Source: Bdellovibrio sp. ArHS (GTDB lineage Bacteria; Bdellovibrionota; Bdellovibrionia; Bdellovibrionales; Bdellovibrionaceae). From it: 43,788 nucleotides of DNA. Of this stretch, positions 17,418-28,592 are shown piece after piece. Under the pieces are notes generated by a model, which did no database searches, had not been told where the DNA came from, and saw only the letters and a program-made list of their open reading frames with translations. Every line of letters begins with the position of its first letter. The first letter of the stretch is position 1. A program made the translations under genes and the position numbers. The stretch covers positions 1 through 43,788 of the forward strand of contig NZ_JTEV01000031.1 in the NCBI RefSeq assembly GCF_000786105.1, in the 5' to 3' direction.

Positions 17418-18623
17418 CTATTTTAAACTTCTATAAGCGGCTTCCAAGATAGGAATCAATTGTCCGCCACTCAAAAGTTTACCATTAGCGAAAACAGTCG
17501 GAGTTCCCTGAATTTGGGCTGTTTCACCCTCTTTGGCCATCTTGCGAATCAGTTCGGCAGTCGTAGGGTCTTTAACACAAGCTTTCAACTCTTCAAGAGC
17601 TAATCCCGTAGACTTAGAAACATCTTCAAGGTTTTTATCTAAGTTGCCAGCGCGGATGATTTCTTCCTGATTTTCAAAAAAATAGTCGTGGGCCGCCCAA
17701 CCTTTTTGCCCCATTTTTTCCGCGCACATGACTGCCGAGGCAAGGCCGCAGGAAATCCCGTCGCCGCCGCCGCGAATGGCTTCGTTGCAAGTGCCATCAA
17801 GCGGGAAAGGCTTGAAGATCAGTTTGACGTCGGGATGACTATTGGCAAAAGCATGAAGTGTTGGAGCTGCATGTTTACAGTGAGGACAGCGGAAATCCGC
17901 AAATTCAACAATGGTCATGACGGGATCTGAGGAGCCTTTTTGCATCGACAATCCTGCGGTCAGGTCGAAGCTTTGTTGCGGAGCTGCCAGCCAATAAGCC
18001 ACTTTTTCTTTGGCTAACTTTTCGATGTCTGAAAGACCGTGGCTTTCGAGATACATAATGTTTCCCAGAAAAGCGAAAGCGGGGATGGCCAAAACAAATC
18101 CGCCAACCCATTTTTCAGCGGTGAAAATATCCTTGGTGTCCTCGATAAGTTGGTTCACGGAAAGATCTTCAGCCCCCAACCAAGCGCCAATAAAACCGAT
18201 GATGGAAAGAACATAGGCGGCCATGCAGAAAATGCAGAGATTGCTCATGAAGGAAAGGGAAATCAGGGCCATTGCGATAGTACCCAGGATGGTAAGTCCC
18301 GAGAAAAGGAACGCATAACGCGATGTTTTTGCGCGATCCTGAACCATATTAAGGCGGGTTACAGCTAAGAAGTAAAGAAGGACGATGTTGGTGACCACTC
18401 CCCAAAGCGCGACAGGAACGCCGAAAAGAGCTGAGTATTTGCTGGCCGTGACAGCATCGCAGTTAAGAACTTCGTTGATGTTGCAGATGGAACCGCCTTC
18501 CGCGGTGCCGTACTTCAAGCCGTAGTAGTGAAGTGTCAGATAGAGGTGGACTCCGATCGCTATCAGAGTGGCGACCAGGGCAAGGTTCAAAAACTTGTTT
18601 TTGCTGGATGCTGTGTTTTTCAT
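17418..18623 (-). CDS. fused VKOR / DsbA-like disulfide-forming protein
   Basis: About 401 residues combining two redox modules. Residues 10-150 form a four-to-five-helix vitamin K epoxide reductase-like domain. Its loop Cys pair is at 47 and 55 (SICNINEVLNCDAV) and its active-site CIFC at 130-133. After another helix (172-190), a DsbA/thioredoxin-fold domain begins near 235 with CPHC at 246-249, and a cis-Pro loop GTPTVF lies near the C-terminus. The fusion would oxidise periplasmic proteins and pass electrons to quinone without a separate DsbB. A TTG at 18659 would add 12 residues. The ATG at 18623 is preferred although its GGGAG is unusually close. Confidence 0.9.
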   Translation of the reverse strand: MKNTASSKNKFLNLALVATLIAIGVHLYLTLHYYGLKYGTAEGGSICNINEVLNCDAVTASKYSALFGVPVALWGVVTNIVLLYFLAVTRLNMVQDRAKTSRYAFLFSGLTILGTIAMALISLSFMSNLCIFCMAAYVLSIIGFIGAWLGAEDLSVNQLIEDTKDIFTAEKWVGGFVLAIPAFAFLGNIMYLESHGLSDIEKLAKEKVAYWLAAPQQSFDLTAGLSMQKGSSDPVMTIVEFADFRCPHCKHAAPTLHAFANSHPDVKLIFKPFPLDGTCNEAIRGGGDGISCGLASAVMCAEKMGQKGWAAHDYFFENQEEIIRAGNLDKNLEDVSKSTGLALEELKACVKDPTTAELIRKMAKEGETAQIQGTPTVFANGKLLSGGQLIPILEAAYRSLK

Positions 18624-18705
18624 GCTCCCATTGAATCGTAGATTCGTGTTTGAAATCAATCAAAATTATGTAAAAATCGGAAGCACGCTATCAAGGAAGA
18701 CAGCA

Positions 18706-20340
18706 TTGAACGACTTACAGAAGTGGATTCGCATCCGCAAAGAGCTTTATCTCCAAATGCAACGCCAGGTTCGCCATAGGTTGGGCGAGGACACGCCTGA
18801 GCTGATGCGCTATCATAAGGTTTATAATAAAGAGTTTCTCAAAAAATGGACGGCGTCCAATAAAGAAGCTCTTTGGGATCAGATGGCGCAATCCCAAGTG
18901 GTGATGATCGGTGATTTTCACGCGCTTCATCAGTCGCAAAAAGCCCAGGTTCGGGTGCTGCGCAGTCTGCCTAAAAATCGCCCCGTGGTGCTTGCGGTGG
19001 AGTTCTTCGAAGCGGCGGACCAGGAAAAAATTGATAAATATCTGTCTGGGAAGTTGTCGGAAAAAGAGTTTTTGAAGGCCGTACAATGGCAGACAAAATG
19101 GGGATTTCCCTGGGAGCATTACCGTCCGCTGATGCGTTGGGCACAGAAACATAAGATTTCTGTGCGCGGACTCAATAAAAGCTATAAAAAGCGCACCGCT
19201 ATCACCTTAAAGTCGCGAGATATTTTTGCAGGTCGAAAGATTGCAGATCTGGTGCAAGAGTTCCCCGAACATTTAATTTTCGTTATCTATGGTGATCTGC
19301 ATTTGGCGTCGTCACATATTCCCGAAGAAATCACCAAAGTTTTAGGGAAGTCTTTTGCTAAGAAAATTCTCCGTTTGTTTCAAAATTCCGAATCTATTTA
19401 TTTTCAGTTGTTGAATAAGGAATTAGAAGCAACCACCGATCTGGTGCGATTGTCGCAGAATGCTTTTTGTCTGATGAGCGTTCCGCCTTGGGTGAAGTGG
19501 CAGAACTATCTGATGTATCTGGAGCAGACTTACGATGTTGGCTTGCAGGATATAGATGACGAAGACGATGAAGATGAGCATCTGGATTACACGGATCACG
19601 TGGGCCGCTATGTTAAAATCATTTCTGATGAGTTGGGCTTGAATGTCGGAATCGACGCGCTGTCCGTTTATACAGCCCGTGATAGCTCTTTTTGGATGCA
19701 GGTGCGGGAAAATTATGACGTCAAAACGCAACGCTGGATCGAGACTCTTATTGCCGAGGGCAACTCTTTCTATCTTCCGGAAATCAAGGCCGCCTATTTG
19801 GCGCGCGGAACTGTGAATCATGCGGCATCTTTGGCCATGCGATACATTCATGCGCAGGTCAGCAAGATGGAGACGACTCTGAAGGATGTTCCGGCGGATT
19901 TTTTAAGTCTCATCTGGCTGGAGGGGACGGCCTACTTCGGCTCCAAGATAATCAACCACAAAAGAAAGACTGACACGATTGCTGATATCAAAGCGTCGTT
20001 AGCGGCGCGAGGTCCTTCTGAAATGGGTAAAGAGGCCTTGCAGTTGGCACTAGCGCAAAAGATGCATGAATTGATGGTGATTACCGGAGTTCCTGGTCAT
20101 CGCCTGCAGGCGATGCCGCGAAAAAAGTGGAGTTATATGATTGCCGCTCAATTGTTGGGTGGAATGCTGGGGGAGCGACTTTACAACGGCTACCGAAAGA
20201 AAATGGTTTCCACGCAAACCCTGCGAAGTTTTCTTGTGAAGCCTTTAGATAGCAAACATTTTTCGGTGGCTTACTATGATATGCTGGAAGTGATTGAAAG
20301 TTTACCCGCGCTTTTTCACAGTAAGAAGGAAAAGTTATGA
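18706..20340 (+). CDS. ChaN-like (EreA/ChaN superfamily) cytoplasmic protein with long C-terminal extension
   Basis: A 544-residue protein. Residues about 60-215 match the ChaN/DUF399 pattern: VVMIGDFHALHQ (His72), AVEFFE (Glu99), a W-rich middle and YGDLHLASSHIP (His199, His204). ChaN of Campylobacter binds haem and is a lipoprotein, but this protein has no signal peptide. The C-terminal 330 residues, including an acidic run near 285-295 (DDEDDEDEHLD), are unassigned. A TTG start at 18706 is chosen because AAGGAAGA lies five bases upstream. The open frame from 18568 runs over the start of the divergent VKOR-DsbA gene. It overlaps the GYF_2 gene by four bases. Confidence 0.75.
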   Translation: MNDLQKWIRIRKELYLQMQRQVRHRLGEDTPELMRYHKVYNKEFLKKWTASNKEALWDQMAQSQVVMIGDFHALHQSQKAQVRVLRSLPKNRPVVLAVEFFEAADQEKIDKYLSGKLSEKEFLKAVQWQTKWGFPWEHYRPLMRWAQKHKISVRGLNKSYKKRTAITLKSRDIFAGRKIADLVQEFPEHLIFVIYGDLHLASSHIPEEITKVLGKSFAKKILRLFQNSESIYFQLLNKELEATTDLVRLSQNAFCLMSVPPWVKWQNYLMYLEQTYDVGLQDIDDEDDEDEHLDYTDHVGRYVKIISDELGLNVGIDALSVYTARDSSFWMQVRENYDVKTQRWIETLIAEGNSFYLPEIKAAYLARGTVNHAASLAMRYIHAQVSKMETTLKDVPADFLSLIWLEGTAYFGSKIINHKRKTDTIADIKASLAARGPSEMGKEALQLALAQKMHELMVITGVPGHRLQAMPRKKWSYMIAAQLLGGMLGERLYNGYRKKMVSTQTLRSFLVKPLDSKHFSVAYYDMLEVIESLPALFHSKKEKL

Positions 20341-20753
20341 AGAACAACTCTTGGTATTACAACAAAAACCTAAAGCCGCAGGGACCGGTGTCGTTACAGG
20401 AAATGCGTGCACTTATTCATCGCGGTGAGGTGGGTCCATACGATTTAGTCTGCTGCGCTCGTGACAGTGTTTGGAAAGCCACCTGTGAGTTTGCGGAATT
20501 TGAGCGCTCTCTGTTTCCGGCAGTGCAAGTTTTTGTGCCGGGAGAAGAGGTGGCGCAGGATGAACGAGAGTGGGTTTTGTTAAGCCCTTCCGAGACGGGA
20601 AAAAGTCTTATTCAGGAAGGTCCCTTTTCAGTTCGTGAACTGCGGGATATGTTGATAAATAAAAAAATTGTAGGAGAGCAATATATCTGGAAGTCAGGCC
20701 TGAGCGGGTGGTGTCGACTGCAAGATCGACCTGAGTTTTCAGAGTTAGTTTAA
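20337..20753 (+). CDS. double GYF_2-domain protein
   Basis: A 138-residue protein made of two GYF_2-like modules. The first (about 4-60) reads WYYNKNLKPQGPVSLQEMRALIHRGEV. The second (about 78-135) has LIQEGPFSVRELRDMLINKKI and ends with a WKSGLSGW motif. GYF_2 domains are protein-interaction modules common in Bdellovibrio and myxobacteria and often bind proline-rich segments. ATGA overlap with the ChaN-like gene indicates translational coupling and a possible physical partner. It is convergent with hup, overlapping by nine bases. Confidence 0.75.
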   Translation: MKNNSWYYNKNLKPQGPVSLQEMRALIHRGEVGPYDLVCCARDSVWKATCEFAEFERSLFPAVQVFVPGEEVAQDEREWVLLSPSETGKSLIQEGPFSVRELRDMLINKKIVGEQYIWKSGLSGWCRLQDRPEFSELV

Positions 20754-21042: not shown

Positions 21043-21208
21043 TTCAAACTAAGAGTCACATCAAAATTGGTCAAGTGAAATACGATAAATGAAAACAACC
21101 GGTCTAGTGCCCTCTCAGAGCGAGGAAGTACTTGGGAGTATTTGTAACGCAGTTATGAACTATTGGATGTGATGCAGAAAAAAACAAACTGTTAAGGATC
21201 AGCTTTTC

Positions 21209-21238
21209 AATATTAGACGATGTCTAATATTCTTAGAC
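21209..21238. promoter_or_regulatory. 23-base perfect dyad plus a third half-site (operator candidate)
   Basis: AATATTAGAC (21209-21218), GAT and GTCTAATATT (21222-21231) form a perfect dyad. A third TTAGAC (21233-21238) repeats the half-site exactly 20 bases after the first, two helical turns. It ends 21 bases before the next start codon. No T-run follows, so it is an operator candidate rather than a terminator. Confidence 0.55.
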
Positions 21239-21259: not shown

Positions 21260-21970
21260 ATGAGCCTGTTTTCCCTAATTCTAATATCTTATTTCGCGAC
21301 GGCCCAGACAGTTTCGACAGCCACTCTTTACGATTTAAAATCGGCTCAGACAAAAAAACTATATATTCTTGAAGTCTCTTTGGTCGGAGATGAATTGCTT
21401 CGCAGCGAAGCCGTGTACAAGGATCTTCAGGGGAACACGGTCGTTAAAGAGCGAGGGTTGGTTGAAAATGCTGAGTTGAAAAGTTATGAAATTGAGCGCC
21501 CTCAAACCTCTGAAAAAGGGCGGTTCTTCGTTGAGGGTGATAAAATCTATTTTGAGTATGTCGGTGCGAACGGCAAGAAAAAAACCTCTGAAGAAAAGCG
21601 ACGCGGCCTGCTGCTTTCAACCGCCAACTTCAATCCTGTCGTCAAAGCCCACTGGCAGGAGCTTGCCTCTGGTCAGGAGCTTGATGTGCGCTTTGCGGTG
21701 TGGGATCGACTGGAAACTGTCGGCTTTACCCTTAAAAAAATGGGGGATCAGAACAAGGACTCGGATAAATGGATGGAGTTGCGAATGAAGCCCACGAGTT
21801 TCGTGATTGCCGCCCTTGTGGATCCCATTTATCTTTGGTATTCCCACGAGTCGAAGAAGCTCATGCTGATGAAAGGTCGTGTTGCGCCAAAGATTCAGGT
21901 GGGCGATCGCTGGAAAGATCTCGATGCGGAAGTGGTCTATACTTATGGCCAGCAGGCCGTCTCAAAATAA
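21260..21970 (+). CDS. secreted protein of unknown function
   Basis: A 236-residue protein with a short signal peptide (MSLFSLILISYFATAQ, cleavage near 16). The mature part is beta-rich and ends with a DVRFAVWDRLETVGF...AELY-like layout (here VGDRWKDLDAEVVYTYG) vaguely similar to DUF3108-type periplasmic proteins, but I do not claim that family. The ATG at 21260 has AGGAGA seven bases upstream; a TTG one codon earlier is less well spaced. It begins a same-strand run of four envelope or coiled-coil genes ending in pyk. Confidence 0.7.
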   Translation: MSLFSLILISYFATAQTVSTATLYDLKSAQTKKLYILEVSLVGDELLRSEAVYKDLQGNTVVKERGLVENAELKSYEIERPQTSEKGRFFVEGDKIYFEYVGANGKKKTSEEKRRGLLLSTANFNPVVKAHWQELASGQELDVRFAVWDRLETVGFTLKKMGDQNKDSDKWMELRMKPTSFVIAALVDPIYLWYSHESKKLMLMKGRVAPKIQVGDRWKDLDAEVVYTYGQQAVSK

Positions 21971-21993
21971 AACAGCCCTTTCAGTCTCAATTT

Positions 21994-22013
21994 TTATCGG
22001 TTTTCGCCGATAA
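21994..22013 (+). repeat. hairpin ahead of the TPR gene
   Basis: TTATCGG (21994-22000) and CCGATAA (22007-22013) pair around TTTTCG, directly upstream of the GTGAGG ribosome-binding site of the gene at 22021. There is no T-run after the stem. Transcription is therefore expected to continue, and the hairpin may protect or set the mRNA end. Confidence 0.45.
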
Positions 22014-22020
22014 GTGAGGC

Positions 22021-22701
22021 ATGAAGAATCAAAATGCTTTTTTCATAGCTTTCTGTTTGTCCCTCACGGTAGGGATTGTCGGGGCTTATGCCTCGTTTGT
22101 TGGTTATTTTAATGGCCATGAACAGTATGAATTAAAGCTCGCGCATTTACAAAAACAGGTGGAAAAAGAGAAGTTTAACAACTCTCTTTTAACTTACCAG
22201 TTGAAGGACTTTCAGCAGACTGTGGCGCAGATTCTTCCGGACGATAAAAAACTTCAAGCGAAGTATGAACTTAAGAATTTATCCTCTATTGTGCGTTCAC
22301 CAGCCAGCGAAGATTCTTTGGATCTTTCTGGAGTTCTTTTTGAAAAAGGAAAGAAGAACTTTAATAGTCGCGATTATGACAAGGCGATCGGGGAGTTTAA
22401 TGAACTTCTTGAGAAGTATCCGCTTTCACAGCATGTGGTCGAATCCCACTTTTTCATTGCGGAAAGCTATTTTCTAAAAAAAGACTATCGCAACAGTCTT
22501 GCGCAAATTGACTCGATGGTGACTTTGTTTCCACAGCATGAACTGACGGGCTTTATTCTATTAAGAATGGGGCAGATCAGCGAATTTAACAATCAGACTG
22601 AAGAAGCTTCGGAAATCTATAAAACAGTTTTCAAAAACTTCAAAAATGACGACTTGAAAAAACAAGCTCGTAAGCTGGCGCAAAGTGTAGAGTATAAATG
22701 A
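22021..22701 (+). CDS. membrane-anchored TPR protein (YbgF/CpoB-like)
   Basis: A 226-residue protein. An N-terminal anchor or uncleaved signal (about 6-28) is followed by a coiled coil (about 38-70). TPR repeats follow from about 108, including LFEKGKKNFNSRDYDKAIGEFNELLEKYP, SHFFIAESYFLKKDYRNSLAQIDSMVTLFP and LRMGQISEFNNQTEEASEIY. The layout coiled coil plus TPR resembles CpoB/YbgF of the Tol-Pal system, but tol genes are not adjacent, so only the general class is claimed. It overlaps the next gene by four bases (ATGA). Confidence 0.75.
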   Translation: MKNQNAFFIAFCLSLTVGIVGAYASFVGYFNGHEQYELKLAHLQKQVEKEKFNNSLLTYQLKDFQQTVAQILPDDKKLQAKYELKNLSSIVRSPASEDSLDLSGVLFEKGKKNFNSRDYDKAIGEFNELLEKYPLSQHVVESHFFIAESYFLKKDYRNSLAQIDSMVTLFPQHELTGFILLRMGQISEFNNQTEEASEIYKTVFKNFKNDDLKKQARKLAQSVEYK

Positions 22702-23435
22702 AGAAGTTCTTTCGTGTTCTGATCTTTATCCTGGCTTTTCAGATGGAAGTGCGGGTGCGCGCTTCCGGAGATTTTTTGCAGCAACCGACGGAGTGTCTGA
22801 AAGCCCAGGAAGCCTGCGCCGTCCAGGTGATCGGAAAGTCTCTTCACTATTCAAGCAAAACTTTAAAGATGCACGCTAAAGAGGGTTCAACGCTGGTAAG
22901 ACTTTCCCCAACACAATGGCGTTTTGTCAGTGGGGCTCTGTGGTTGGAAAACTCTCGCAATGTGGAAGTCGAGACATTGTATGGAAGTTTAAAGGCGACG
23001 CAAGGGCAGTATTTCGTTATCGAACAAGGCCATCGTGTGGTGATCCGTAACATGGATGCGACGTTGTCAGTGACGTTGCGAGACGGAAAAACGTTGCGCT
23101 TGCCTGAGGGCTTTGAATTCTGGATTGCCGGTCTGAATTCCAAAGGTCAGTCTGACTATGGCATGATTCAGCCCGTGGACATGAAAGCTCACTTGCCGCT
23201 GTGGAATTCCCTGTATGAAGGTTCTAAAAAGGACTTCATCACTTTGGTTTCTCACCTGCGCGAAAATTGGGGTGATTTGACGGAAAAAAGCGCCTTGATT
23301 TATCAAAATGCGGTGGAGCGGGAAATCGCTTCTGAAAAAGAAAAAGAGCGCGCCGAACAAGCTCGCAAAGCCCGCATTCAGGCGGAACGCCAGGAAATGA
23401 AGCGTCTTTATCACGAACGAGTGTTTGAACGCTAG
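22698..23435 (+). CDS. secreted FecR-like protein with charged C-terminal helix
   Basis: A 245-residue protein with a signal peptide (ends RVRAS near 23). Residues about 55-130 form a beta-rich stretch (FVSGALWLENSRNVEVETLYGSLKATQGQYFVIEQGHRVVIRNMD) resembling FecR-domain proteins of the periplasm. A C-terminal Lys/Glu/Arg helix follows (about 200-245). FecR domains are often signal-sensing or peptidoglycan-linked; no sigma factor or TonB receptor is adjacent. Four-base overlap with the TPR gene suggests that the two products act together in the envelope. Confidence 0.65.
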   Translation: MKKFFRVLIFILAFQMEVRVRASGDFLQQPTECLKAQEACAVQVIGKSLHYSSKTLKMHAKEGSTLVRLSPTQWRFVSGALWLENSRNVEVETLYGSLKATQGQYFVIEQGHRVVIRNMDATLSVTLRDGKTLRLPEGFEFWIAGLNSKGQSDYGMIQPVDMKAHLPLWNSLYEGSKKDFITLVSHLRENWGDLTEKSALIYQNAVEREIASEKEKERAEQARKARIQAERQEMKRLYHERVFER

Positions 23436-23522
23436 ACTCCGGTCCTGTTTTTAAAATCCGACACTGCTGAATTGAAGTTTCTTCCAAAGACTAATGTTAA
23501 TCTGAGGTCTGGGAGGATAAGG

Positions 23523-25199
23523 ATGTCTTCTATTTCATCTTCGGATCGCGCACGTCAGGACGACAAGATTCGCCAAACTCGTGAAGAGTATGAAAATCGA
23601 GAGTCGGAAAATGCCAAACGCCGTAATGCGGAACTCAAGCGTTTAGAACAACGCCATAGCGAAGAAATTCGTAATATCACTGACAATTATGAAGAGCGCA
23701 TCGCGGAACTCAAAGAACGTAATAGAGAGACTTTGACGGATCGGGATTTTGAGAACAATCGTAAAATCGATGAGGTTCGTCAAACTTATCGTGAGTCTCT
23801 TCGTAATAAAATGGAAGACGCCTATAATACTCGTGAAGAACAAAAGGCGGCTTATGAAGGAGAACTTCGTAAGCAGAAAGAAATCTCGCAGTCCCAAAAG
23901 GAAAACCTGGTGGGGCAGATGAATAGTGAAGTTCTGCAGCGGGATGAACGTTTTGCGCAAATGTCGGAAGAAAACCGCCTGAAAGCTCAACAGACGGTTC
24001 ATAATAACGCCCGCAAACTCAATGAGGCGCATGAAAAAGAGAAAAGCGCCATGCAGGCCGGCTTTCAAGATACTCTGCGTTCGCACACGCGTAGTGCTGA
24101 TGAAGTACGCAAGTCTTATGAGTCCCGTCTTCGTCAAAGTGAGCGGCAGCGTGAGGCGGATAATTCCCGCTGGTCGCAAAAGTACACAGATACGGTTGTC
24201 AATAAAAGCGAAGAATATGCTGACAACCTTGAAATGAAACAGATGATTTTGGATGGTGAGCGCGAAACAATTCGTGGCAAGTATGAAAACACTTTGGCCA
24301 AGAAAACCGACATCATGGATGGACAAAATCAAGACTTCCGTGATTCGGTGAATGAGCGGGTTAACTCTCAGGTGCGTTCTCGCGACAGTCAGATTCAACG
24401 TTTGAATAGCAAGCTGAATAATGAAATTTCAAAGAATGAACGACTGCGGGGGTTAGAGCGCCGTAATCTGACCGAGGCTTATGAAAAGCGTTTCGATCTT
24501 GTGGATCAGCAAAGACAAGATGCGGTTGATCAGATGAAGGGTCTGAACGATGAAAGAATCGATAGTGTTCTGACTGAAAATCGTAAGCTCTTAAGAAATG
24601 CGGACCGGGATAATAAGTCGCGGATGGGTATGACCAATGCGCGCCACCGCGAGGATCGAGAAAATTTAATCCAGCAGCACAAAGATCAGGTGACTCAAAT
24701 CTCTAACAACGCGGAAAGTCGGGTTAAGAAGGTCTTGGATTTAACCAATAAGCGTTCCGGGGATATGGAGCGCTACTATGCGGATTCCTTGGACACCGTA
24801 AAAGCGAATTATATGGATCGTATGGATGCTTACCGCGATAAGACAGTGAGTGATCAAACGGTCACGAATAAAGTCATGACGGAGCGTTTTAGAAATATGG
24901 AAGCGGGTTTTAACTCGAAGTTGGAACAGACGGTGAAGACTTATGAGGACAAGATCGCCCAGTTGAAAGAAAGCAATGACCGGGAAATCAAACGCCTGGA
25001 AAATTTGTATTCCACTCGTTCCGGGGACCGTGAAAAGGCCGTGAAGATGGAAAAAGAGTCTTTGGCCATGAAGTATGAGGCAAAGCTGGCTCAACTCAAT
25101 GAGTCTCATCAGGATCAATTAGATAGAATGAATAGACGCCACCAGGAGGATATGCAAAACTTATCTGTGAAGATGAGTTCATATAGCAGGAAGGCGTAG
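23523..25199 (+). CDS. 558-residue coiled-coil protein, possible filament or scaffold
   Basis: Nearly the whole length (about 10-550) is charged coiled coil, very rich in Arg, Glu, Asp, Lys, Asn and Gln, without signal peptide or membrane helix. Short Asn/Arg/Asp-rich repeats such as ERxRE and NRKxxD recur. It could be a cytoplasmic filament or scaffold. Bdellovibrio is known to have an intermediate-filament-like protein, Ccrp, but I cannot decide whether this is its orthologue. The frame opens at a TTG at 23472; the ATG at 23523 follows GGGAGGATAAGG and is preferred. Its stop is four bases before pyk, so the two are co-transcribed and probably coupled. Confidence 0.75.
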   Translation: MSSISSSDRARQDDKIRQTREEYENRESENAKRRNAELKRLEQRHSEEIRNITDNYEERIAELKERNRETLTDRDFENNRKIDEVRQTYRESLRNKMEDAYNTREEQKAAYEGELRKQKEISQSQKENLVGQMNSEVLQRDERFAQMSEENRLKAQQTVHNNARKLNEAHEKEKSAMQAGFQDTLRSHTRSADEVRKSYESRLRQSERQREADNSRWSQKYTDTVVNKSEEYADNLEMKQMILDGERETIRGKYENTLAKKTDIMDGQNQDFRDSVNERVNSQVRSRDSQIQRLNSKLNNEISKNERLRGLERRNLTEAYEKRFDLVDQQRQDAVDQMKGLNDERIDSVLTENRKLLRNADRDNKSRMGMTNARHREDRENLIQQHKDQVTQISNNAESRVKKVLDLTNKRSGDMERYYADSLDTVKANYMDRMDAYRDKTVSDQTVTNKVMTERFRNMEAGFNSKLEQTVKTYEDKIAQLKESNDREIKRLENLYSTRSGDREKAVKMEKESLAMKYEAKLAQLNESHQDQLDRMNRRHQEDMQNLSVKMSSYSRKA

Positions 25200-25203
25200 T
25201 AAA

Positions 25204-26691
25204 ATGTTAGCAGATCGTCGCGCAAAAATTGTGGCCACTATCGGCCCCGCAACTCGTGATGAAAAGAACTTAGAAAAAGCGATTAAGGCGGGCATGAATG
25301 TGGCTCGCCTTAATTTTTCCCACGGCAGTCATGAAGATCACCTTAAGGTGATTCATTCACTGCGAAAACTTTCCCAGGAATTAAGAGCCCCCGTGGCCAT
25401 TTTGCAGGATCTTCAGGGTCCGAAAATTCGTGTGGGAAAATTCGAAAAAGGTTCTATTGAGATCAAACCGGGTGAGCAATTGGTGATCACGACGGATGCC
25501 GTATTGGGAACCACGGGTTTGATTCCCTCTGATTTTAAAGAGCTTCCTTTGGCCTGCTCGCCAGGCACCCGCATTCTTCTTGATGACGGCTTGATGGAGC
25601 TGAAGGTTCTTAAAATTCGCGGCCACGAAGTGGATGCGGAAGTTGTCTATGGTGGTATTTTAAAAGACCGTAAAGGAATGAATCTTCCGGGAGTGAATCT
25701 TCCGGTCGAGTGCATGACCCCGAAGGATCTTGAGGATCTTGATTTTGGTATCGCCAACAAGGTGGATTACATCGCCTTGAGTTTTGTTCGTCACGCCCGG
25801 GATATTCGTAAACTGCGTGAAATCATTGAATCAAAAAATTCCAACGCCAAAATCGTCGCCAAAATTGAAATGGTGGAAGCTTTAGAAAATCTGGAAGAGA
25901 TTTGCCGTTTAAGCGATGTTGTGATGGTGGCACGCGGCGATTTAGCGGTCGAAGTCGGACAGAGCCGTCTTCCTGGTTTTCAAAAGCGTATCATTCAAGT
26001 TTGTAACCAGTTAGGAAAACCGGTTATCACCGCCACTCAGATGCTAGATAGTATGGTGGAAAATCCTCGTCCTACGCGCGCTGAAATCACGGATGTGGCC
26101 AACGCGGTTTTGGATGGCTCTGATGCCTTGATGCTTTCTGCCGAGTCGGCCAGTGGTAAACATCCATTTAAGTGCATTCGCACCATGCATGAAATTATCA
26201 CGGAAGTGGAGCGCAACGAGGAAGAGTACTACAAGCTGTCGTTAGAGAGTGAATTTTTAAGCACTCCTGCAGCGATTGCCGCAAGTGCCTCTTTAAGTGC
26301 TTTAAAGCTGAATGCAACGGCGATTATCTGTTTAACCACTTCCGGTAAAACAGCGAATATTATTTCGGGTTTCCGTCCGAAGGCGCGCGTGATTTCCGTG
26401 ACTCAGCATATGGATGTTTTAAATTCCATGGAGTTGATGTGGGGGATTCAGACTCATGTCATTAAGCCCTATAAAACCATGGAAGACATTCTTAGTCAGA
26501 TCGATCAACTCATGGTGACTCATGGTTTGGCAAAAACAGGAGACCGGGTGATTTTAACTCTGGGGCAGCCCATTGCCCAGGGAGCGAAAACAAACTCTAT
26601 TTACGTGCACACGGTGAACGGAGAAAGCTACACAAAGCTTCCTGACGAGCAGTTGCCTTTGCGCTGTCGTGCGGTCACTAGTATCGATTAA
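25204..26691 (+). CDS. pyk: pyruvate kinase
   Basis: A 495-residue enzyme making pyruvate and ATP from phosphoenolpyruvate. Family motifs are RRAKIVATIGPATRDEKNLE at the start, NFSHGSHEDH near 37, LQDLQGPKIRVGKF near 70, AKIEMVEALENLEEI near 217 (catalytic Lys) and VITATQMLDSMVENPRPTRAE near 275. The C-terminal domain for allosteric effectors begins near 350. The length is slightly above the usual 470. The ribosome-binding site AGGAAGG lies within the end of the coiled-coil gene. Confidence 0.97.
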   Translation: MLADRRAKIVATIGPATRDEKNLEKAIKAGMNVARLNFSHGSHEDHLKVIHSLRKLSQELRAPVAILQDLQGPKIRVGKFEKGSIEIKPGEQLVITTDAVLGTTGLIPSDFKELPLACSPGTRILLDDGLMELKVLKIRGHEVDAEVVYGGILKDRKGMNLPGVNLPVECMTPKDLEDLDFGIANKVDYIALSFVRHARDIRKLREIIESKNSNAKIVAKIEMVEALENLEEICRLSDVVMVARGDLAVEVGQSRLPGFQKRIIQVCNQLGKPVITATQMLDSMVENPRPTRAEITDVANAVLDGSDALMLSAESASGKHPFKCIRTMHEIITEVERNEEEYYKLSLESEFLSTPAAIAASASLSALKLNATAIICLTTSGKTANIISGFRPKARVISVTQHMDVLNSMELMWGIQTHVIKPYKTMEDILSQIDQLMVTHGLAKTGDRVILTLGQPIAQGAKTNSIYVHTVNGESYTKLPDEQLPLRCRAVTSID

Positions 26692-26718
26692 AAAGAATAG
26701 TTTTTAGAAACAAAAAAA

Positions 26719-26746
26719 AGCCCAAGAAAACTCTTGGGCTTTTTTA
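26719..26746. terminator. bidirectional terminator between pyk and the cyclic-nucleotide-binding gene
   Basis: AGCCCAAGA (26719-26727) and TCTTGGGCT (26732-26740) with a 4-base loop have T6 downstream on the plus strand and T8 downstream on the minus strand. It serves both converging genes. Confidence 0.92.
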
Positions 26747-26795: not shown

Positions 26796-27779
26796 TTAGC
26801 GCAGCTTCTTCTTCAGACTATTCACTATGGACCAGTTGCGCGCCAGCGGTTCGACATAGGGCAGTTCCACCATGATGTAGACGCCTTTTTCATCCATGAT
26901 TTTTTCGGTGAGATATTTTTTCTCAATCAGAGAGTTCACATCGTCGGGACGAATAAGGTTGCCCAATTCTTTCATGGATTCGTTCTGAACCTCGTTCAGA
27001 TCCACTTTGTAAAGTCCCTTGTTGTTGGGTTCCACTTTTCGCGCGAAATGCAGAATGCCGTTTAAGACATTGACCTCAGGGTCGGTCATTGCTGGCAAAC
27101 GATCTTTTTCCTGCTTAAAAAGCCATTCGTTGTACCAATCCACAAACGAGAAAAGTTCCTGGGGTTTTAGGTTTGTGATTTTTTGCGAACCGTCGCCGCG
27201 GTCTTCCTGTTTCAAATAACCAAGGTCTGTCAGCGCGTTCACCACGCTTTGCATTTTATTTGTGGCCTCTTGGAAAATCTGAATCGTGTAGTTGCGAATA
27301 AGAACAGAGGAAAAAGCCAAAGTGCCTGGAGATTCTTCCTTGCCATATTTGTTTCCGACCAGATTTAAAATGGAAATATACTTATTCACGATATGAGGCG
27401 GGAAGCGCTCTTCGTCGGGATTTGAATTCTCAAGAATTTTGATTTTTTTGTTTGCTTCGCGCATGTTCTCGTTCAGAGTTTTCATGATCGCGCGCACCCA
27501 CACGGGAAGCTGTTCCATTTGTTTCGTCAAAGATTCGTAAGGCAAGGCGATGACTTCGGATTCTTTCGTGGCTTTGACGTTTGCGCTGCGGGGCTTGTTG
27601 TCGAAAAGAGCCATTTCTCCGACCATGGCTCCGGGAGCAATTTCCGCCAGGACGATTTCCGTGCTACCTTTGGTTTTCGTAATCGCGAAAGCCCCTGACT
27701 TCACAATGTACATAGCATCAGGAGCATCACCTTCACGGAATAGGTAAGTATCTTTCGCCACCTTTTTCTGCTCTGCCAC
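26796..27779 (-). CDS. cyclic nucleotide-binding domain protein without HTH
   Basis: A 327-residue protein. Residues about 8-120 form a cyclic nucleotide-binding domain with the phosphate-binding cassette PGAMVGEMALFDNKPRSANV (about 49-68), including the Glu and Arg needed to hold the phosphate. A long helical C-terminal part (about 125-327) has no helix-turn-helix I can recognise, so it is unlike Crp. It may be a non-DNA effector regulated by cAMP or another nucleotide. The frame opens at a GTG at 27842, but the GTG at 27779 with AGAGG six bases upstream gives the better start. The neighbouring minus-strand thiolase/CoA-transferase operon ends in a terminator before it. Confidence 0.8.
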   Translation of the reverse strand: MAEQKKVAKDTYLFREGDAPDAMYIVKSGAFAITKTKGSTEIVLAEIAPGAMVGEMALFDNKPRSANVKATKESEVIALPYESLTKQMEQLPVWVRAIMKTLNENMREANKKIKILENSNPDEERFPPHIVNKYISILNLVGNKYGKEESPGTLAFSSVLIRNYTIQIFQEATNKMQSVVNALTDLGYLKQEDRGDGSQKITNLKPQELFSFVDWYNEWLFKQEKDRLPAMTDPEVNVLNGILHFARKVEPNNKGLYKVDLNEVQNESMKELGNLIRPDDVNSLIEKKYLTEKIMDEKGVYIMVELPYVEPLARNWSIVNSLKKKLR

Positions 27780-27882
27780 CAAAGACCTCTTTGCTGAATG
27801 TGAATTGTTATTATCACTGGAAAAAACACCAGGGGCAAACACTGACTAGACCTTTGATGGAGAGTGTTTTTCTTTGATACAA

Positions 27883-27935: not shown

Positions 27936-28592
27936 CTAGAAGCTCATCGGTTTGCAGTCGGGAGCGATCGTCATCTTTCCTTCGGTCGCAGCGAGAACTT
28001 TTTCCGGAGACAAATCGGGAGCATATTCTTTTAACACGAACCCTTGAGGAGTGACCTCGATCACACCGAAATCACTGACGATTTTTTTAATACACTTTAC
28101 GCCTGTCAAAGGCAGAGTGCATTTGGTGCGAAGTTTGGAGTTTCCTTCCTTGTCCGTGTGTTGCATAGCTACGATGACGTTGCGAGCTCCAGCCACAAGA
28201 TCCATGGCGCCGCCCATGCCTTTCACCATTTTTCCTGGAACCATCCAGTTCGCGATACTGCCTTCTTCATCCACTTCCATGGCGCCGAGGACGGTGAGGT
28301 CCACGTGTCCACCACGGATCATGGCGAAGCTGTCAGCGCTCGAGAAAAAACTTGCTCCAGGCAGAGCGGTGACTGTTTGTTTTCCAGCGTTGATCAAGTC
28401 GGGATCAATGTCTTTCTCGAAGGGGAAAGGCCCCATTCCTAAAAGACCATTTTCGCTTTGTAACATAACAAACTTGTTCGTGGGGATGTAGTTTGCAACC
28501 AAAGTCGGAATACCGATTCCTAAGTTGACGCAATACCCATCTTCCACTTCCTGAGCGATACGTTGCGCGATTTGTTCACGAGTTAATGGCAT
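27936..28592 (-). CDS. scoB: 3-oxoacid CoA-transferase subunit B
   Basis: A 218-residue B subunit of the SCOT family, transferring CoA between succinyl-CoA (or acetyl-CoA) and acetoacetate. The catalytic Glu is in the motif LQSENGLLGMGPFP near residues 43-56. GGHVDLTVLGAMEVDEEGSIANWMVPGKMVKGMGGAMDLV follows the standard order. The choice between succinyl-CoA-dependent ScoB and AtoA types is not certain. Three bases separate it from scoA, so both are in one operon with the thiolase. Confidence 0.92.
   Translation of the reverse strand: MPLTREQIAQRIAQEVEDGYCVNLGIGIPTLVANYIPTNKFVMLQSENGLLGMGPFPFEKDIDPDLINAGKQTVTALPGASFFSSADSFAMIRGGHVDLTVLGAMEVDEEGSIANWMVPGKMVKGMGGAMDLVAGARNVIVAMQHTDKEGNSKLRTKCTLPLTGVKCIKKIVSDFGVIEVTPQGFVLKEYAPDLSPEKVLAATEGKMTIAPDCKPMSF

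Follow-up and report, generated by a model that had tools for sequence, protein, structure and literature searches.

The window analyzed here is a stretch of 43,788 nucleotides from the genome of Bdellovibrio sp. ArHS (genome G000; 3.54 Mb, 47 contigs), in which four genes, hereafter named A, B, C and D, lead into pyk, the single-copy gene for pyruvate kinase. An original prediction, made from the sequence of this window, had read A to D as one same-strand run encoding envelope and coiled-coil proteins; the run is present, with all five genes on the forward strand. Gene A (21260-21970) encodes a secreted protein of 236 residues with a signal peptide. Gene B (22021-22701) encodes a protein of 226 residues with an N-terminal membrane segment, a helical linker and C-terminal tetratricopeptide repeats (TPRs). 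Gene C (22698-23435) encodes a secreted protein of 245 residues with a predicted FecR/PupR-type beta-solenoid, and its overlap with B is exactly the four bases reported earlier (22698-22701). Gene D (23523-25199) encodes 558 residues arranged as an uninterrupted array of about 50 hendecads (repeats of 11 residues), and the putative product is an undescribed alpha-helical, rod-like protein encoded just before pyk. The pyk gene (25204-26691) starts four bases past the D stop codon, and a Shine-Dalgarno-like AGGAAGG (25188-25194, forward strand) lies within the last D codons (R-K-A), 9 nt before the pyk ATG.

The family-level comparison covered 66 genomes and the order-level comparison (Bdellovibrionales) covered 141 genomes from 10 families. 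Genome counts given below are not independent events, because the species are phylogenetically nested. Gene A occupies this locus in some members of the genus Bdellovibrio and in one neighbouring genus (G034), and in no others. Therefore, the conserved unit consists of B (TPR protein), C (FecR-like protein), D (coiled coil) and pyk.

Hendecad periodicity and constant length of D

Periodicity of D was evaluated from the Fourier spectrum of alignment-averaged hydrophobicity, compared with 2000 permutations. A single, sharp peak was found at 3.665-3.67 residues (11/3) with a power of 71.6, whereas the permutation maximum was 11.8; the power at the heptad period (3.5) was 0.47. For the order-only set of orthologues, the power at 11/3 was 74.0. 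The phase stayed within about 27 degrees across successive 66-residue windows along the whole protein, indicating that no stutter or skip occurs over the 558 residues. In the 11-residue frame, positions 0, 4 and 7 are hydrophobic, giving a 3-4-4 pattern. Aromatic residues, mainly Tyr, are nearly all located at position 0 (0.30 versus at most 0.04 elsewhere), while I, L, V and M mainly occupy two other positions of the register. Among 1059 non-redundant proteins encoded in the fetched loci, D orthologues took the first 65 ranks by periodicity. Every one of them peaks at 11/3 (3.66-3.67), and the next-ranked proteins were heptad coiled coils at about 3.52. No DNA-level repeats worth reporting were found in the gene.

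Structure prediction with AlphaFold2 (AF2), which covered monomers, gave helices at residues 6-422 and 430-557 of D with a mean pLDDT of 75, consistent with a predicted continuous helix. The original prediction had taken D for a coiled-coil protein, and both the periodicity and the AF2 helix agree with an elongated helical protein. D carries no signal peptide and no membrane segment. The 46 aligned orthologues contain no Cys and at most eight Pro in about 25,500 residues. No entry for this family was found in Pfam, NCBIfam or PHROGs, and the lack of a PHROG match led us to reject a phage tape-measure or other phage protein. Hydrophilins are glycine-rich, and group 3 LEA proteins consist of Ala/Lys-rich 11-mers in variable number; D, with 2.1% Gly, 5.8% Ala and a fixed number of repeats, belongs to neither.

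Orthologues of D were aligned from the family (n = 26) and from nine other families (n = 20). The 26 family orthologues, sharing 22-72% identity, required 561 columns for 558 residues, with no internal indel outside the termini. Of the 20 more distant orthologues (15-24% identity), 19 showed no indel between about residue 6 and residue 550, and the remaining one carried a single compensated -1/+1 pair. Lengths of the 46 orthologues range from 549 to 560 residues (standard deviation 3.0). The start codons of some orthologues were chosen to suit, while the gap-free core does not depend on the choice of start. As a length control, a heptad coiled coil encoded nearby in the same genomes measured about 309-393 residues, apart from one open reading frame (ORF) of 558 residues with a presumably mis-called start. 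This control protein (about 370 residues; L038 16962-18095 and orthologues) is encoded upstream of a VKOR gene. The alignment of C took 334 columns for 245 residues.

Only two residues of D are invariant and few others are conserved. Together with the gap-free core and the lack of Cys, this suggests that selection on D preserves its length and register in preference to its side chains. The predicted rod shape and the fixed length of D both have good support in its sequence, and the near-constancy of this length across ten families suggests that the exact length matters inside the cell. With up to 85% sequence change tolerated and almost no indel over about 545 positions, D would offer a clear example, found in nature, of length and register being under selection. 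The ending of D is also conserved, and this may partly reflect the Shine-Dalgarno-like site for pyk located inside its last codons.

Distribution, gene order and loss

Within the family, a relative of D was detected in 52 genomes, representing 19 of 20 genera, and was nearly always full-length. In nearly all family loci examined, B, C, D and pyk are consecutive on one strand. At the order level, D was found in 104 of 141 genomes, distributed over all 10 families; this count includes fragments, and a 105th match (G080) corresponds to a short paralogue only. The pyk gene lies directly 3' of D on the same strand in 101 of these 104 genomes, the other three being broken or incomplete assemblies. 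The order B-C-D-pyk spans Bdellovibrionales, and such a run far exceeds what chance would give. The lack of a conserved order, by which the original prediction would have been refuted, was thus not observed. In the rest of the phylum, D gave only weak partial matches (E values of 1e-4 to 1e-7), taken as chance coiled-coil similarity.

Among the 20 loci from the nine other families, B-C lies directly upstream of D in most. Five of them (L092, L093, L095, L098 and L104) contain two to four extra genes between C and D, mostly of envelope type. A recurrent gene pair was observed at this position in families f4, f6, f8 and f10, encoding proteins of about 410-450 and 780-1093 residues that are lipoprotein-like, with one extra gene in L095. 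In L091, D and pyk are together and C is located about 14 kb upstream. Genes can therefore intervene between C and D but not between D and pyk, and the link of D to pyk is tighter than its link to B or C. Within the family, most D-pyk gaps measure 1-6 nt, and a 4-nt ATGA overlap was found in L063, L107 and L109. The AGGAAGG motif is kept in many members of the genus.

The co-occurrence of C and D, proposed earlier as a check, was evaluated in the 141 genomes. Both genes were detected in 100 genomes, D alone in four (at least three of them fragmented assemblies), C alone in 17 and neither in 20 (Fisher p ~1e-10, without phylogenetic correction). From these counts, C occurs without D, but D hardly ever occurs without C. 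No D was detectable in the 14 genomes of genus g17. One single-contig genome (G043) is presumably that of the epibiotic predator B. exovorus JSS. The 11 pyk loci of g17 that were read have the arrangement Vkor-ChaN-HU-B-C-pyk, from which D alone is cleanly lost, and about 17 nt separate the end of C from pyk; in one locus (L079), C is missing too. The B protein of these loci (L078-L088) is shortened and diverged, sharing 17-23% identity with B of the window. In seven other genomes with pyk and without D, neither B nor C was detected at the pyk locus itself, and C is present without D at other loci in G071-G073 and G110. A clean joint loss of B, C and D is thus partly ruled out, since B and C are retained in g17 and C in these last four genomes. 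Among the 37 genomes that lack D, pyk is missing as well in 16, and no intact D was found in a genome without pyk.

Short stand-alone paralogues of 93-97 residues matching residues 1-100 of D, here called mini-D, were found in about a dozen genomes, and their periodicity is again 11/3. They include L110 3011-3301, L111 2823-3110, L113 2859-3140, L114 2768-3058, L115 2796-3077, L116 2791-3078, L118 2791-3081 and L119 3067-3360. Their neighbours, named by eye, include sdhAB (L113), isocitrate lyase (L114), and acyl-CoA dehydrogenase with methylmalonyl-CoA mutase (L119); in L113 (sdhB) and L114, mini-D is immediately adjacent to a gene of the TCA or glyoxylate cycle. This proximity to metabolic genes hints at a metabolic link, though the evidence is anecdotal.

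Envelope proteins B and C and the flanking elements

In B, about five residues precede the membrane segment and are predicted to be cytoplasmic; the helical linker and the TPRs follow. The best NCBIfam match is tol_pal_ybgF (TIGR02795, E = 2e-19), with a score of 70.3 bits, below the curated cut-off of 90.1, so that B does not qualify as a member of the CpoB/YbgF family by this model. B is not located beside tol-pal genes either, its neighbours across the order being C, D and pyk. C carries a near-invariant Cys pair (C33 and C40) and ends in a helical tail of about 50 residues. Its predicted structure (pLDDT 88) matches the PupR cell-surface signalling domain (6ovk; Z 16.3, root-mean-square deviation 2.3 A over 127 aligned residues) and a putative anti-sigma factor (4m0n; Z 14.7), while the next beta-rich match scores about 4. 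The predicted fold of C is thus of the FecR/PupR periplasmic type, as the original prediction had proposed, even though no FecR Pfam model matched any of 27 orthologues at E values up to 1. C has no cytoplasmic anti-sigma domain and no ECF sigma-factor neighbour, being flanked by B and D.

Homologues of A in other genera are found at different loci or are missing, and the protein has no match in Pfam, NCBIfam or PHROGs. Given this distribution, A was ruled out as a core member and is best seen as a facultative addition to the locus. Some 30 bp before A, at 21208-21230, lies the dyad, a perfect palindrome AATATTAGAC-GAT-GTCTAATATT (10-3-10) that has no other perfect copy in genome G000. Among relatives, L070 shows compensating changes in the dyad, L069 has a broken version and the other genus members examined have none; near-copies in the genome are no commoner than those of a reversed control pattern. 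A conserved operator was ruled out by this lineage-restricted presence and the control count, leaving the dyad, at best, as a local regulatory site. Both A and the operator-like dyad are present upstream, as first described, and neither is part of the conserved system.

A terminator-like palindromic stem (26714-26745) is located between pyk and a convergent gene for a cNMP-binding protein. A scan for promoters and terminators gave matches no more frequent than in shuffled sequence. The convergent genes for the cNMP-binding protein and a CoA-transferase (26796-27842 and 27936-28592) adjoin pyk across much of the order. On the other side, the block at 17418-20753 encodes a VKOR-DsbA-type fusion (reverse strand), a ChaN-like protein and a GYF-domain protein, and in many genomes of the order it stays beside HU and the B-C-D-pyk unit. 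This places a disulphide-forming system near C, the gene with the conserved Cys pair.

Possible roles of D and relation to known proteins

We favor, with moderate confidence, a reading in which B-C-D-pyk is an ancient gene unit of Bdellovibrionales and D is a cytosolic scaffold rod of constant length. The four genes would most likely form one transcription unit. D would be a cytosolic structural protein, a continuous hendecad alpha-helix that most likely associates with itself into an oligomer. The rod would be nearly straight and about 82-84 nm long (558 residues with a rise of 0.15 nm each). As selection seems to hold length and register rather than sequence, its role would most likely be that of a constant-length scaffold, a spacer or a filament subunit. 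D and pyk appear to be translationally coupled, and the rod could thereby be made in step with central metabolism. B, anchored in the inner membrane, and C, in the periplasm, would be the envelope proteins of the unit. Both are predicted to lie outside the inner membrane, B with a cytoplasmic tail of about five residues, and neither could reach D alone; a contact with D, if any, would need another, membrane-spanning partner. The D family covers much of an order to which the best-studied predatory bacteria belong; none of the databases searched contains it, and its gene is locked to one of central metabolism.

Several points weigh against this reading. The oligomer, the filaments and the localisation of D are predictions from sequence, and the monomer model has a pTM of 0.19, with weak pLDDT near residues 66-71, 268-283 and 424-430. 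The coupling of D to pyk may be purely regulatory. Genus g17 lives without D, and D is therefore not indispensable. In addition, an amphipathic helix with 11/3 periodicity, as known from synuclein or apolipoproteins, could lie on a membrane instead of forming a coiled coil. D would then coat or sense the inner membrane. The exact 11/3 period fits such a helix, and the only match of the D profile in a PDB sequence search was apolipoprotein A-IV (E = 0.004). However, only 3 of 11 positions make up the hydrophobic face of D, a narrow one, the remaining positions carry acidic and basic residues throughout with no cationic rim, and lipid binding does not need a strictly constant length, so that we consider a membrane-surface helix improbable. 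It is unlikely, too, that D acts as a metabolic scaffold that binds pyruvate kinase, and perhaps other enzymes, spacing or concentrating it. This would explain why the two genes are never separated: their adjacency (101/104) is kept in loci where B-C is interrupted or lies far off, every intact D is accompanied by pyk, 16 of the 37 genomes lacking D also lack pyk, and some mini-D genes neighbour metabolic genes. However, gene adjacency does not prove contact, the pyruvate kinase of g17 works without D, the joint loss of D and pyk may be one deletion in reduced genomes, and the mini-D neighbours are few and picked by eye. A more elaborate version, to which we give a low probability, sees D as an intracellular molecular ruler, about 50 hendecads long. 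It would scaffold pyruvate kinase into a metabolic structure resembling a cytoskeleton, with mini-D encoded next to other metabolic genes; the structure would be specific to Bdellovibrionales, and its ruler lost in g17, which seems to include the epibiotic predator B. exovorus. One reading in the original prediction had instead connected an envelope complex to an internal filament or scaffold; B, C and D would then form one structural complex running from the envelope to the cytoplasm, with D as its inner filament. This reading is supported in part: B and C overlap and in most genomes directly precede D, C and D co-occur across the order, and D appears elongated and helical. The physical complex itself finds no support, as no encoded product spans the inner membrane with both a periplasmic and a substantial cytosolic domain, g17 has kept B and C but not D, C is likewise present without D in G071-G073 and G110, and secreted genes can sit between C and D. 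We therefore regard such a complex as unlikely.

D could also be an already known protein. Ccrp is a Bdellovibrio protein whose loss dents the cell; we take its gene to be Bd2697, and genome G003 to be that of strain HD100. B. bacteriovorus was described in 2022 as having a 'sole' Ccrp (PMC8938487). D would be an obvious candidate for it. Bd2692 is an S8-type protease (PMC6510308). In G003, a protease of this type is encoded at 2614527-2616068, and four ORFs beyond it lies a coiled-coil ORF of 407 residues with a signal peptide (L060 18741-19964; G003:C1 2618740-2619963) that fits Bd2697. If this ORF is Ccrp, then Ccrp would be an exported protein. Its periodicity peaks at 3.52 and not at 3.667. 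HU corresponds to Bd2104 (PMC11318664). The D orthologue of G003 (2012503-2014176) is located beside HU, about 600 kb away from the ORF fitting Bd2697. Given the different locus and periodicity, and with G003 taken as HD100 and ccrp as Bd2697, D is very probably not Ccrp.

The proteins of the unit resemble several known systems. B shares with CpoB/YbgF, the periplasmic TPR protein associated with Tol-Pal, an N-terminal export or anchor segment, a helical linker and a C-terminal TPR domain. Unlike CpoB, B retains an apparent membrane anchor and belongs to the pyk unit instead of tol-pal; at most, by analogy, it may work like CpoB. C resembles the FecR/PupR anti-sigma regulators in its predicted periplasmic beta-solenoid domain. 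It differs from them in having a signal peptide in place of the mid-protein membrane segment, an extra helical tail and no anti-sigma part. For D, the closest class is that of the hendecad coiled-coil proteins, reportedly surveyed in 2023 by Martinez-Goikoetxea and Lupas. D shares with this class long runs of 11-residue repeats, the 3-4-4 hydrophobic pattern and a predicted continuous helix: its 11-residue periodicity is sustained in one register, and the protein is predicted to be alpha-helical along the repeat region. D differs from the class in that a single register extends over the whole protein, that its length of about 50 repeats is kept across ten families, and that it occurs in one order and is tied to pyk. 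Like Ccrp (Bd2697), crescentin and FilP, which are intermediate filament-like proteins, D is a long, rod-like predicted coiled coil and a candidate cytoskeletal element, and like Ccrp it belongs to a Gram-negative predator. Unlike Ccrp and the other proteins of this type, D lies at another locus, lacks a signal peptide and follows an 11-residue instead of a heptad periodicity. D would join Ccrp as the second candidate for a cytoskeletal element in an organism for which one Ccrp only has been described.

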